The notes under the pieces: generated by a model
Told to the model about the DNA's origin: nothing
Seen by the model: only the letters and a program-made list of their open reading frames with translations
Database searches by the model: none
DNA from: Erysipelotrichaceae bacterium
GTDB taxonomy: Bacteria > Bacillota_I > Bacilli_A > Erysipelotrichales > Erysipelotrichaceae
NCBI GenBank assembly: GCA_017512885.1
Contig: JAFWEP010000003.1
Coordinates: forward strand, 62,001-126,000
Length of the DNA stretch: 64,000 bases
Direction: 5' to 3'
Position numbers and translations under genes: made by a program
In this document: positions 521 through 37,103 of the stretch, one piece after another
Numbering within the stretch: position 1 is the first letter of the stretch
How the letters are laid out: each line of letters opens with the position of its first letter

Positions 521-551
521 AATTTCCAACCTCCGTTCTTTCCTATTGTCT

Positions 552-565
552 ACTTGTCGACAACT
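552..565. promoter_or_regulatory. Palindromic operator copy 1 (TTGTCGACAA core)
   Basis: ACTTGTCGACAACT contains the perfect 10-bp palindrome TTGTCGACAA at 554-563. It lies between the -10 box and the ribosome binding site of the acyl-CoA dehydrogenase gene, a position fit for repression. The same core forms a perfect 16-bp palindrome at 1987-2002. The binding protein is not visible in the window. Confidence 0.6.
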
Positions 566-573
566 TCACTATT

Positions 574-602
574 ATCTTACTGTATTGTCCATTTTCTGAC
601 AA
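574..602 (-). promoter_or_regulatory. Promoter of the acyl-CoA dehydrogenase gene
   Basis: On the minus strand TTGTCA (597-602) and TAAGAT (574-579) are separated by exactly 17 bases. An inverted repeat ATTGTC-N8-GACAAT (584-603) covers the -35 box, and the TTGTCGACAA palindrome lies just downstream of the -10 box, about where transcription would begin. Confidence 0.6.
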
Positions 603-615
603 TGTGACTTTGTAC

Positions 616-644
616 CAAAAAAGCCCCGTTTCCGGGGCTTCGTT
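616..644 (-). terminator. Rho-independent terminator after the membrane/kinase fusion gene
   Basis: On the minus strand a GAAGCCCC/GGGGCTT stem with a short GGAAAC-type loop is followed by a run of T. It lies directly downstream of the stop codon at 652. Confidence 0.85.
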
Positions 645-651
645 TGTGGTA

Positions 652-1959
652 TCAGGCATTCCGCTTAGCCAGGACGTCCTTGATCATCTTCAGGGCCATC
701 TCTGCCGACTCTTCGATCCCGATCTCATCGCTTCTGACACAGAGATCATAGTGCTCGGCCATGCCCCAGGTCTCACCGGTGATCTGCAGGGAATAGTTCC
801 GGCGGAACTCATCTTCCTTGCGGACATACTCCCGCGCTTCTTCCTCGCTCATCCCGTTCAGCCGGGCAAAACGCTTCGCTCTTTCTTCCAGTTTGGCGCT
901 GACGAAGAGGTCGAAGGTATGCGGACGGTCCTTCAGGACATAGGCGCCCAAACGGCCGACGATGACGCAGTTCTCACGGGCAGCGATGCTGCGGATGATC
1001 TCAGCCTGCGCATCGAAGACCTGCTGCTGGCGGGAAGGATTCTGGGAATAGACATAGGACTGCTGGTACAGAGAGTACAGCAGGGAGTTGGTATTGCGTT
1101 CCTCGAGCTTGCTGACTTCGTCGACCGTCAGTCCCATTTTGGCTGCCGTTTCGCTCAGCAGGGCGTAATCATAGAAGGCATAGCCCAGCTTCTCGGCCAG
1201 GATCTCGCCGATGCGGTGACCGCCCGAGCCCAGTTCGCGCTCGATGGTGATCACGTGCGGCATCGAAGGGATCGCTTCGGCCGGGACCTTTTCCGGAGCC
1301 CGGACGCCCAGGAACTTCTCGACCGGCTTGTTCAGGAGACGGGAGAAGACCCCGACGAAGAAACCGACCAGCACGGCGGCCAGGATCGTTCCTTCACGGA
1401 CTGCTTCCAGCTTGTGGAAGACCGTCAGGGAGATGACCGTCGTCAGCGCGATCATCGTGAAGTCGACCGCGATCTTGACCTTGCCGAACTCCTGCTTCAC
1501 CTTCTGGGAGATGACCGAGATCGCTCCTTCCGAAGCCATCGTCAGCAGGTTGGCCTTGACCTCGAAGAAGACGCCGATGCCGTCCAGCGCACAGGCAAAG
1601 ACCGCCATCAGCACGCAGACGATATAGTTATCGGAAGACACCCCTGCAAACAGGGAGTTCGCCAGGTCGATGAAGAAGCCGAAGATCACCACTGCGACCA
1701 GCTGCAGGAAACGGGTCGGCTTGAAAGCCTTCCCCAGCAGGAGGATCTGGATGATCACGAAGACGACGTTGATCAGGGTATTGAAATTCCCCATCGATAA
1801 GGGAAAGATCTGACTCAGTACATACGCCAGCGATGCGGACGGCGAAACGCCGAGACCGGAACGGGCCGACAAAGCGATCCCGCAGGAAAGGATAAAGAGC
1901 CCCGCGACCAGCAGGATGGCTCTTTTGATCAGTTCGGTACCGGAATACTTCATATGCAT
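652..1959 (-). CDS. YczE-like membrane domain fused to a cytidylate-kinase-like domain
   Basis: Of 435 residues, 1-215 form a multi-helix membrane domain of the YczE/YitT type (several helices, a GLGVSP motif near residue 35). Residues 235-435 form a Cytidylate_kin2-type P-loop kinase domain beginning VITIERELGSGGHRIG, where GSGGHRIG takes the place of the P-loop. Such kinase-like domains bind nucleotides, but the substrate is unknown. I chose ATG 1959: TTGGAGG at 1968-1974 is 8 bases upstream. The longer ATG at 1974 would lie at or before the transcription start. The gene has its own promoter and terminator and shares an operator with the acyl-CoA dehydrogenase gene. A membrane-tethered nucleotide-binding sensor or kinase is an inference only. 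Confidence 0.8.
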   Translation of the reverse strand: MHMKYSGTELIKRAILLVAGLFILSCGIALSARSGLGVSPSASLAYVLSQIFPLSMGNFNTLINVVFVIIQILLLGKAFKPTRFLQLVAVVIFGFFIDLANSLFAGVSSDNYIVCVLMAVFACALDGIGVFFEVKANLLTMASEGAISVISQKVKQEFGKVKIAVDFTMIALTTVISLTVFHKLEAVREGTILAAVLVGFFVGVFSRLLNKPVEKFLGVRAPEKVPAEAIPSMPHVITIERELGSGGHRIGEILAEKLGYAFYDYALLSETAAKMGLTVDEVSKLEERNTNSLLYSLYQQSYVYSQNPSRQQQVFDAQAEIIRSIAARENCVIVGRLGAYVLKDRPHTFDLFVSAKLEERAKRFARLNGMSEEEAREYVRKEDEFRRNYSLQITGETWGMAEHYDLCVRSDEIGIEESAEMALKMIKDVLAKRNA

Positions 1960-18599: not shown

Positions 18600-19523
18600 T
18601 CAGTCATATAACGCAGTAGAGAGATAACGGTCCCCGCTGTCCGGCAGCAGGACCACGATCGTCTTTCCTTCGTTCTCCGCTTTCTGCGCTTCCTTCACTG
18701 CCGCATACAAGGCAGCTCCGGAAGAGATCCCGACCAGGATCCCCTCATGACGGCCGACCAGTCTGCCGTAAGCGAAGGCATCCTCGTTGGTGACCCGCAC
18801 GATCTCATCATAGACCGCCGTATCCAGCACTTCCGGTACGAAACCGGCACCGATGCCCTGGATCCCGTGGGGACCGGCTTTCCCGCCGGAAAGGACTGGA
18901 GAACTGTCCGGTTCCACCGCCACGATCTTCACGTCTTTTCTTTCTTTCAGGTATTTGCCGATACCGGTGATGGTACCTCCGGTACCGACACCGGCTACGA
19001 AGACATCGACTTCTCCTTCACTGTCCTTCCAGATCTCCGGTCCGGTCGTCTTGTAGTGAGCCTGCCAGTTGGCAGGATTGACGAACTGTCCGGGGATGAA
19101 GGCATGGGGGATCTCCCTGGCCAGTTCTTCAGCCTTGGCGATCGCACCGCTCATGCCTTTGGAACCTTCCGATAAGACGATCTCTGCTCCGTAGGCCTTT
19201 AACAGTTTCCTTCTTTCCACCGACATCGTCTCCGGCATGGTCAGGATGCAGCGGTAGCCCTTCAGGGCAGCGATTGAAGCCAGACCGATCCCGGTATTGC
19301 CGGATGTCGGTTCGATGATGACACTGTCCGGCAGGAGCTTGCCGTCCTTTTCGGCCTGAGCGATCATTTCCCGGGCAACACGGTCCTTGACCGATCCGGC
19401 CGGGTTGAACAGTTCCACTTTGGCCAGCAGCTTCGCTTTCAGACCGAAATGTTCTTCGATGTGGTGCAGTTGCAGCAACGGGGTATTTCCGATCAGTTCT
19501 TCTGTAGAATGATATACAGGCAT
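18600..19523 (-). CDS. cysK: Cysteine synthase (O-acetylserine sulfhydrylase)
   Basis: A 307-residue PLP enzyme that makes cysteine from O-acetylserine and sulfide. The Schiff-base lysine is K46 in NPAGSVKDR, the substrate loop TSGNTG is at 73-78, and the phosphate loop GVGTGGT is at 178-184. GGISSGA-type C-terminal motif reads GISSGAALYA. GGAGG precedes the ATG. The 260-base leader upstream holds a Cys-containing mini-ORF, a terminator and an antiterminator, so expression is probably controlled by attenuation. Confidence 0.93.
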   Translation of the reverse strand: MPVYHSTEELIGNTPLLQLHHIEEHFGLKAKLLAKVELFNPAGSVKDRVAREMIAQAEKDGKLLPDSVIIEPTSGNTGIGLASIAALKGYRCILTMPETMSVERRKLLKAYGAEIVLSEGSKGMSGAIAKAEELAREIPHAFIPGQFVNPANWQAHYKTTGPEIWKDSEGEVDVFVAGVGTGGTITGIGKYLKERKDVKIVAVEPDSSPVLSGGKAGPHGIQGIGAGFVPEVLDTAVYDEIVRVTNEDAFAYGRLVGRHEGILVGISSGAALYAAVKEAQKAENEGKTIVVLLPDSGDRYLSTALYD

Positions 19524-19577: not shown

Positions 19578-19595
19578 TCAATATCGTTTACGCAT
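19578..19595 (-). CDS. Possible five-residue mini-ORF before cysK
   Basis: ATG at 19595 encodes MRKRY and stops. A strong site GGGAGGAG lies 4 bases upstream. It sits between the leader terminator and the cysK start. It may be chance, or a translational gate for read-through transcripts. No family match is possible at this length. Confidence 0.3.
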   Translation of the reverse strand: MRKRY

Positions 19596-19607
19596 AGTCT
19601 CCTCCCT

Positions 19608-19644
19608 GAAAAAAGATCCGGAGCTTATTCCGGATCTCTGGTCT
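19608..19644 (-). terminator. Leader terminator (attenuator) of cysK with overlapping antiterminator strand
   Basis: On the minus strand AGATCCGGA (19629-19637), loop ATAAGC, TCCGGATCT (19614-19622), then TTTTT. This 9-bp perfect stem lies inside the cysK leader and not after a gene. Its 5' arm with the preceding bases (19629-19644) can instead pair with 19676-19691 in the leader ORF over 16 positions, with one mismatch and two wobbles, forming an antiterminator. Confidence 0.75.
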
Positions 19645-19663
19645 TCCGAAAACAGTCGATGAT

Positions 19664-19717
19664 CTACGCTTCGACAGACCGGAGACCCGAAGACTGCTGA
19701 CAGCTCATTCGCTTCAT
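19664..19717 (-). CDS. Putative cysK leader peptide
   Basis: ATG at 19717 encodes 17 residues, MKRMSCQQSSGLRSVEA. AAAGGAGG lies 6 bases upstream. The only cysteine codon is residue 6. The 3' half of the ORF contains the antiterminator strand (19676-19691). A CTTCG motif at Ser9-Ser10 can pair with CGAAG just before the stop, hiding that strand. A ribosome stalled at the Cys codon would cover CTTCG, free the antiterminator and allow cysK transcription. This is a structural inference from the sequence. Confidence 0.55.
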   Translation of the reverse strand: MKRMSCQQSSGLRSVEA

Positions 19718-19784
19718 AGAGACCTCCTTTCTGCCTTTCTGTTTTCAGTGTATGTCTCAATAAGGGCGTGCGCAAGAAAGATGC

Positions 19785-20195
19785 TCAGACGAGGACGCCC
19801 TTGCAGTGGTCCAGTTCATGCTGGAGGATCTGGGCGGTCAGACCCTGAAAAGTCTGCACATGTTCGCTGAAGCCCTCATCCTGATAGCGTACCCGGATCT
19901 CCCGGTAACGGGTCACACTGTGGCTGCCGCTTACTGAAAGACAGCCCTCCATCGCGGGATAAGGACCCTTCTTCTCCAGGATCTCTCCGTTCAGGATGGC
20001 CTTGATCAATGGTCCCTCCCGGAAAGCGATCAGGGCTTTGGGCACACCGATCATATTGGCGGCCATACCGAGACAATGGGCGCTGTGAAACTGCAGGGTA
20101 TCCTTCAGGTCCCGGATCAGTTCTCTGTCTTCTTCAGTCATCTCCTTTGCTTTCTGGGAAAGCAGGAAGGGATCTTTGCAGATAGGACGGATCAT
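19785..20195 (-). CDS. def: Peptide deformylase, short form with altered motif 1
   Basis: 136 residues from ATG 20195 (AGGAGGAAAC upstream; ATGA overlap with the stop of nnr). Motif 2 EGCLS (83-87, metal ligand C85) and motif 3 HELDH (126-130) are intact. Motif 1, normally GxGxAAxQ, reads GMAANMIG at 43-50, so the usual oxyanion glutamine is methionine. This variant recurs in short deformylase paralogues of Bacillota. It should remove formyl groups from new proteins, but reduced or altered activity is possible. It is third in the MATE-nnr-def operon. Confidence 0.85.
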   Translation of the reverse strand: MIRPICKDPFLLSQKAKEMTEEDRELIRDLKDTLQFHSAHCLGMAANMIGVPKALIAFREGPLIKAILNGEILEKKGPYPAMEGCLSVSGSHSVTRYREIRVRYQDEGFSEHVQTFQGLTAQILQHELDHCKGVLV

Positions 20196-36701: not shown

Positions 36702-37103
36702 CTATCTGGCACAGAGATCCGACAGTGTCAGACCATGCAGATAAGACCTCAGATTCTGGTTGTAATCAGAGATCTTCCGGTAGGTAGCGGGTGCATACTT
36801 TTCCATACTGGCACAGGCTTTCTCATCTTCCAGCGTGCGTTCATACAGGATATCGTCTCCGAAGAGATCCAGCACATCCCTGACCTGAACATCCTTCGGA
36901 TCGACCGCCAGCCGCCAGCCGCCGGTCACTCCGCGTTCTACGCTGACGATCCCGGCCTTGCGCATCTTGCCCATGACCGTATACAGGAAGTTCTGCGGGA
37001 TGTCCATCTCCTCCGCGATCTCTGCCGCATTGGCCATCTCTCCTTTCGCTGTCAGGTAGATCAGCGCACTCAGTGCATAATCTGTAGTCATTTTCCACTG
37101 CAT
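36702..37103 (-). CDS. Rrf2-family transcriptional regulator
   Basis: 133 residues. The N-terminal winged helix-turn-helix is clear (TTDYALSALIYLTAKGEMANAAEIAEEMDIPQNFLYTVMGKMRKAGIV; wing RGVTGGWRLA). The three conserved cysteines that bind an iron-sulfur cluster in IscR/NsrR are not present in order: only one cysteine (KACASM) is in the expected region and one at the C-terminus. It thus probably senses by another means. It may control the adjacent MATE gene. Confidence 0.85.
   Translation of the reverse strand: MQWKMTTDYALSALIYLTAKGEMANAAEIAEEMDIPQNFLYTVMGKMRKAGIVSVERGVTGGWRLAVDPKDVQVRDVLDLFGDDILYERTLEDEKACASMEKYAPATYRKISDYNQNLRSYLHGLTLSDLCAR

Follow-up and report, generated by a model that had tools for sequence, protein, structure and literature searches.

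A cysteine-codon leader ahead of cysK in Erysipelotrichaceae, a probable ribosome-mediated transcription attenuator

Introduction

Ribosome-mediated transcription attenuation with an intrinsic terminator is typified by the E. coli trp leader. In Bacillota, the genes of cysteine metabolism are usually held to be controlled by CymR, T-boxes, or SAM riboswitches.

The uORF (short leader ORF) of Corynebacterium ilvB is likewise a ribosome-mediated attenuator with an intrinsic terminator (PMC11109978). For cysteine, the uORFC-8-2 motif, found before cysS in Rhodobacterales, combines tandem Cys codons in a uORF with an intrinsic terminator (PMC8632094). In mycobacteria and other Actinobacteria, poly-Cys leader ORFs before cysteine genes are known or predicted, with no conserved terminators (PMC1262725); they are described as acting by translation attenuation (Canestrari 2020, cited in PMC13236596). 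A His leader peptide precedes hisZ and a hisS paralogue in Bacillus, and the authors describing it knew of no earlier amino-acid leader peptide system beyond Proteobacteria and Actinobacteria (PMC2965389).

Anatomy of the cysK leader

The window is the whole stretch of DNA analyzed here, 64,000 nucleotides from an Erysipelotrichaceae bacterium. An earlier sequence-only reading proposed a Cys-codon attenuator ahead of its cysK gene, and inspection of the sequence finds all of the leader features that it listed in place on the minus strand. The leader lies downstream of a deformylase gene of the same strand, which ends at 19785; no clear promoter was found between the two. The features are as follows.

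18600-19523, minus: cysK, cysteine synthase A, the putative regulated gene (TIGR01139, 440.6 bits, cut-off 350.95)
19578-19595, minus: mini-ORF MRKRY with a strong Shine-Dalgarno (SD) sequence, 3' of the terminator (sequence; not conserved)
19596-19603, minus: AGGAGACT, 3' of the T tract, pairable with GGTCTCT at 19724-19718, a weak form of the outer helix (-10.4 kcal/mol)
19609-19614, minus: terminator T tract, of which the first T also closes the stem (sequence)
19614-19637, minus: terminator hairpin AGATCCGGA-ATAAGC-TCCGGATCT, segments 3 and 4 (sequence; helix covaries in relatives)
19628-19648, minus: antiterminator 3' arm CGGAAGACCAGAGATCCGGAA, which contains segment 3 (duplex energy against shuffles)
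19664-19717, minus: uORF MKRMSCQQSSGLRSVEA, 17 codons (sequence)
19671-19692, minus: segment 2, the antiterminator 5' arm CTTCGGGTCTCCGGTCTGTCGA (duplex energy against shuffles)
19692-19669, minus: CTTCG/CGAAG (sequence)
19700-19702, minus: single Cys codon TGT, codon 6, the proposed control codon (sequence)
19722-19730, minus: strong SD of the uORF, AAAGGAGGT (sequence)
19723-19735, minus: GGCAGAAAGGAGG, SD included, pairable with 19685-19673 as the segment 1:2 protector (minimum-energy fold without a ribosome)

The terminator stem upstream of cysK is a perfect 9 bp (19637-19614), and 15 of 16 positions pair between 19691-19676 and 19644-19629, two of them as G-T, both as the earlier reading described. 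The end of the Cys codon is separated from the antiterminator arm by 7 nt, matching where the last Cys codon lies in relatives. The MRKRY mini-ORF, also pointed out at the outset, has no counterpart in the cysK leaders of relatives; its SD region overlaps the strand able to pair with the uORF start region.

The CTTCG/CGAAG hairpin was proposed to hide the antiterminator strand. The sequence is present, but it lies outside the minimum-energy fold and has no visible counterpart in relatives, and it was rejected as the protector on these grounds. A more likely protector is the SD region paired with the antiterminator arm (19735-19723 with 19685-19673).

The antiterminator duplex of the window has an energy of -27.3 kcal/mol versus a shuffled mean of -14.6 kcal/mol; 2 of 20,000 dinucleotide shuffles are as stable. 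Cutting both strands of the window into 300-nt tiles gives 426, of which 39 (~9%) contain an SD-led short uORF with at least one Cys codon, such that the single-Cys uORF is not significant alone. The original caution that one Cys codon weakens the case still applies to this member, which a model built without the window leader misses (see below). The fold of the whole leader is weakly better than that of shuffles (z -1.3) and is uninformative. No Rfam family matches the window or the leaders of its relatives, and a permissive search of the window leader for a T-box or SAM riboswitch returned only unrelated sub-threshold hits, in agreement with the sequence-only reading. The case for an attenuator from the window sequence alone is suggestive only.

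Cys-run leaders before cysK in relatives

cysK loci were collected from the GTDB family of the window and from named genomes, many of which are labelled Solobacterium or Erysipelotrichaceae. In many of these relatives, cysK is preceded by a short uORF that has a strong SD and contains 2-6 Cys codons in a row, e.g., MFENIKHNMVCCCCCCICHSPDGSPGSF (L020), MKQFRNTCCCCMCNNTRICRLGLF (L013), and MRNNGAGMCCCRCIRDRICRHGMF (L012, from a same-genus genome). Among the 142 cysK upstream regions left after removal of repeats, at least two adjacent Cys codons occur in 39 and at least three in 27, versus 0.5 and 0.025 expected from dinucleotide shuffles; the reverse strand, used as a control, gives 1 and 0, respectively. 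TGT and TGC are swapped among relatives and the runs vary in length and position, as expected if the amino acid is what counts. A DNA-level search with the leader in 40 relatives returned, besides the window itself, only short purine-rich matches at the ribosome-site end of cysK. A search of whole genomes for the poly-Cys uORF pattern yielded mostly reading-frame noise except for the cysK leaders.

Both pairings of the proposed switch covary in relatives, and the Cys codons are found in the same place; the comparison of relatives' cysK leaders suggested alongside the original proposal therefore came out in its favor, and the reading of the leader as a Cys-codon attenuator is largely right. In 28 leaders, the terminator was located, and the stretch separating it from the Cys run was searched for the best partner of its 5' arm. 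The resulting antiterminator is better than dinucleotide shuffles (p ≤ 0.05) in 23 of the 28, its arm mostly starts 4-16 nt beyond the last codon of the Cys run, and that of the window is the strongest of the set. On a plain MAFFT alignment of 26 leaders, 85.6% of cells are paired in the antiterminator helix and 87.3% in the terminator. The latter has 17 cells with both sides changed, with none of 500 shuffles as good, and sliding its partner by one column lowers pairing to at most 56%. With hand-set registers, none of 2,000 shuffles equals either helix (8 bp each) in the percentage of pairing or in the number of double-sided changes. Examples of compensation include ACCCGG/CCGGGT, GACCGG/CCGGTC, GCCCGG/CCGGGC, TCTCGG/CCGAGA, and ACCTGG/CCAGGG.

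Short Cys uORFs are also observed near the cysK genes of L007, L016, L017, L028, and L015, which fall outside the leader clade. Their peptides are MKNYKAFFRCCK, MKRCCSSLNELY, MERCCNSLNE, MKRKRMCCC, and MNSDCCC..., and no terminator was found between uORF and cysK at these five loci; they are perhaps a second kind, translational or Rho-dependent. A second poly-Cys leader, MVHMKKTICCCCICTSTRFCRPGSFQL, occupies 534-730 (minus) of a contig in another genome (G199:C64, loci L203/L085), directly before a non-cysK gene and near the contig end. It scores 80.6 bits with model R2, in whose training set it is absent. Its location could reflect relocation of the leader to another gene or misassembly of the contig.

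Phylogenetic spread and standing of the window member

Two changes suffice to account for the Cys leaders on a 58-row cysK tree, versus a shuffled mean of 19, and the window cysK lies inside a group of 30 rows that holds 25 Cys leaders, with a support of 94/77 only. Four cysK genes of this group were scored as leaderless, one of which (L054) has, on inspection, a two-Cys uORF and an antiterminator. The L054 leader is low in Cys (MFLLSVQSGCCRKE), its antiterminator, GAAACCGGGCTC/GAGTCCGGTTTC, is a perfect 12 bp, and the terminator follows immediately.

Strong hits to a covariance model occur in four genera of the family (g1, g3, g35, g43), in 20 of 196 genomes. In a sample of 392 genomes of the phylum, the matches of this model are confined to the same family under strict filters that may lose weak ones. 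cysK loci were also sampled from the order and class beyond this family. No SD-led uORF there contains two adjacent Cys codons, and the single locus of that sample in which one does (G005) is itself of the window's family.

The window leader is a very divergent member. Model R2, built without it, has no match at 19590-19747 with filters off and E up to 10, nor does it find family members elsewhere in the same genome, whose cysE-like locus has no Cys-run uORF. A model trained with the window included gives 38 bits, which is not independent evidence. Synteny of the window cysK locus with same-genus genomes is absent. With no match to R2 and no synteny, the case for membership by descent is built on the cysK tree and shared anatomy and not on a sequence profile. 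The interpretation is supported strongly for the leader family and fairly for the window member.

An Rrf2-family regulator gene is encoded in the window at 36708-37088, minus (G000:C34:98708-99088; 97 bits, above the Pfam cut-off), and a second one is found on contig G000:C8. A CymR-like regulator may be a second control of the cysteine genes.

Proposed mechanism and alternatives

The leader probably controls cysK by ribosome-mediated transcription attenuation, with charged tRNA-Cys as the signal sensed. The parts, their spacing, the covariation, and the Cys runs of relatives are read directly from the DNA; translation of the uORF, pausing, termination, and a response to cysteine are inferred. 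With ample cysteine, the ribosome would reach the uORF stop and mask segment 2, allowing the terminator (3:4) to form and to end transcription ~85 nt upstream of cysK. When Cys-tRNA(Cys) is scarce, the ribosome would stall on the Cys codon; segment 2, which lies immediately beyond, would then pair with segment 3, blocking the terminator and letting transcription continue into cysK. Without translation of the uORF, its SD region could pair with segment 2, which should again favor termination. In the read-through RNA of most relatives, the uORF SD region could pair with the terminator 3' arm, the U tract, and the bases beyond, which would silence the uORF.

Equilibrium folding of the window leader favors the terminator in every ribosome state; the choice would therefore have to fall during transcription. 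A comparison of terminated and read-through forms at equilibrium over four ribosome states has no consistent direction (11 of 28 leaders positive). As a kinetic proxy, folding was computed for RNA that stops short of segment 4. By this measure, the pairing probability of segments 3 and 2 in the window is 0.80 for a ribosome waiting at the Cys codon and 0.00 for one at the stop. Over the 28 leaders, pausing is favored in 13 and the opposite direction in 7. The latter are mainly leaders in which the uORF extends well beyond segment 2, suggesting that leaders with long uORFs are not fully captured by the simple model.

A less probable reading is that the window copy is a decayed or retuned member, in which termination persists and slow translation of the uORF, whatever its cause, relieves it, cysteine-specific sensing having been lost. 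It has one Cys codon versus the 2-6 of relatives, and the leave-one-out model fails to recover it. However, the window leader retains its SD, uORF, and terminator intact, together with the strongest antiterminator of the set, the remaining Cys codon occupies the position of the last Cys codon of relatives relative to the antiterminator arm, and L054, with its two Cys codons and perfect antiterminator, is a second few-Cys leader. We consider this reading unlikely. Sensing of another amino acid, e.g., serine, the precursor of cysteine, is more improbable than any other reading weighed here: although the 17 codons include four for Ser (positions 5, 9, 10, and 14), the common uORF feature of relatives is the Cys run and not Ser, and there would be little point in raising cysK when serine is lacking.

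The hairpin could also be the ordinary terminator of the deformylase gene, with the uORF arising by chance, as the location of that gene on the same strand and the lack of a clear intervening promoter might suggest. Yet relatives with other upstream genes retain uORF, antiterminator, and terminator directly 5' of cysK, and the window antiterminator is equalled by only 2 of 20,000 shuffles; this explanation is given very little weight. Ribosome-mediated attenuation of cysK by charged tRNA-Cys is the preferred reading.

The outer helix

In the relatives' leaders, the region from before the uORF SD to the start codon is complementary to the terminator 3' arm, the U tract, and the bases that follow, a long-range pairing that the earlier reading had not noted. 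Pairs from the same leader average -23.5 kcal/mol versus -15.1 kcal/mol for cross-leader pairs, and the part beyond the U tract alone gives -13.0 versus -9.0 kcal/mol; neither difference is matched in 5,000 permutations, although relatedness within the set makes the sequences non-independent. The minimum-energy read-through fold of many leaders is a rod with the outer helix outside and the antiterminator inside. The outermost 6 bp are paired in just 54.5% of cells on the plain alignment, and the register of the helix seems to shift among leaders. In the window, the helix is weak (GGTCTCT with the segment 3' of the T tract, listed above).

On the basis of this complementarity, we infer that the outer helix hides the uORF SD after read-through. 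A self-locking class of attenuator is tentatively proposed, with slightly less than even confidence, in which the SD region zips with the terminator 3' arm, the U tract, and beyond, forming a long rod around the antiterminator and silencing the leader ORF post read-through; the class would be Cys-specific and restricted to one cysK clade in Bacillota. The outer helix is a testable proposal for how a leader ORF is shut off once read-through has happened.

Comparison with known systems

No description of a Cys leader in Bacillota or ahead of cysK turned up in the literature searched, a negative that is not proof of absence because most subscription journals lay outside the search. Cys-specific control of cysK in Bacillota thus appears to be unreported. 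The clade with poly-Cys uORFs and intrinsic terminators would mean that codon-counting attenuation arose for cysteine in Bacillota too, apparently in one cysK lineage. Its series of one to six Cys codons provides natural material on the number of control codons that an attenuator needs.

Like the E. coli trp type and Corynebacterium ilvB, the leader has a short ORF with putative control codons, an antiterminator that competes with a terminator, and a biosynthetic gene downstream. Unlike these, it concerns cysteine and cysK in Bacillota, and its relatives add a helix between the uORF SD region and the terminator 3' half and beyond. The uORFC-8-2 motif belongs to Alphaproteobacteria, precedes a tRNA-synthetase gene, and places its Cys codons (14-15) inside the first stem, whereas here the Cys codons precede the antiterminator arm. 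The actinobacterial poly-Cys leaders share the Cys runs before cysteine genes but are described as lacking conserved terminators and as partly leaderless, in contrast to the SD-led uORFs and intrinsic terminators described here. The Bacillus His leader, likened by description and not by sequence relation, has in common a codon-run leader with a premature terminator in Bacillota but concerns histidine and tRNA-synthetase-like genes. The proposed mechanism is classical ribosome-mediated attenuation, and the amino acid, the gene, the lineage, and the outer helix together set these leaders apart as an apparently new form of it.
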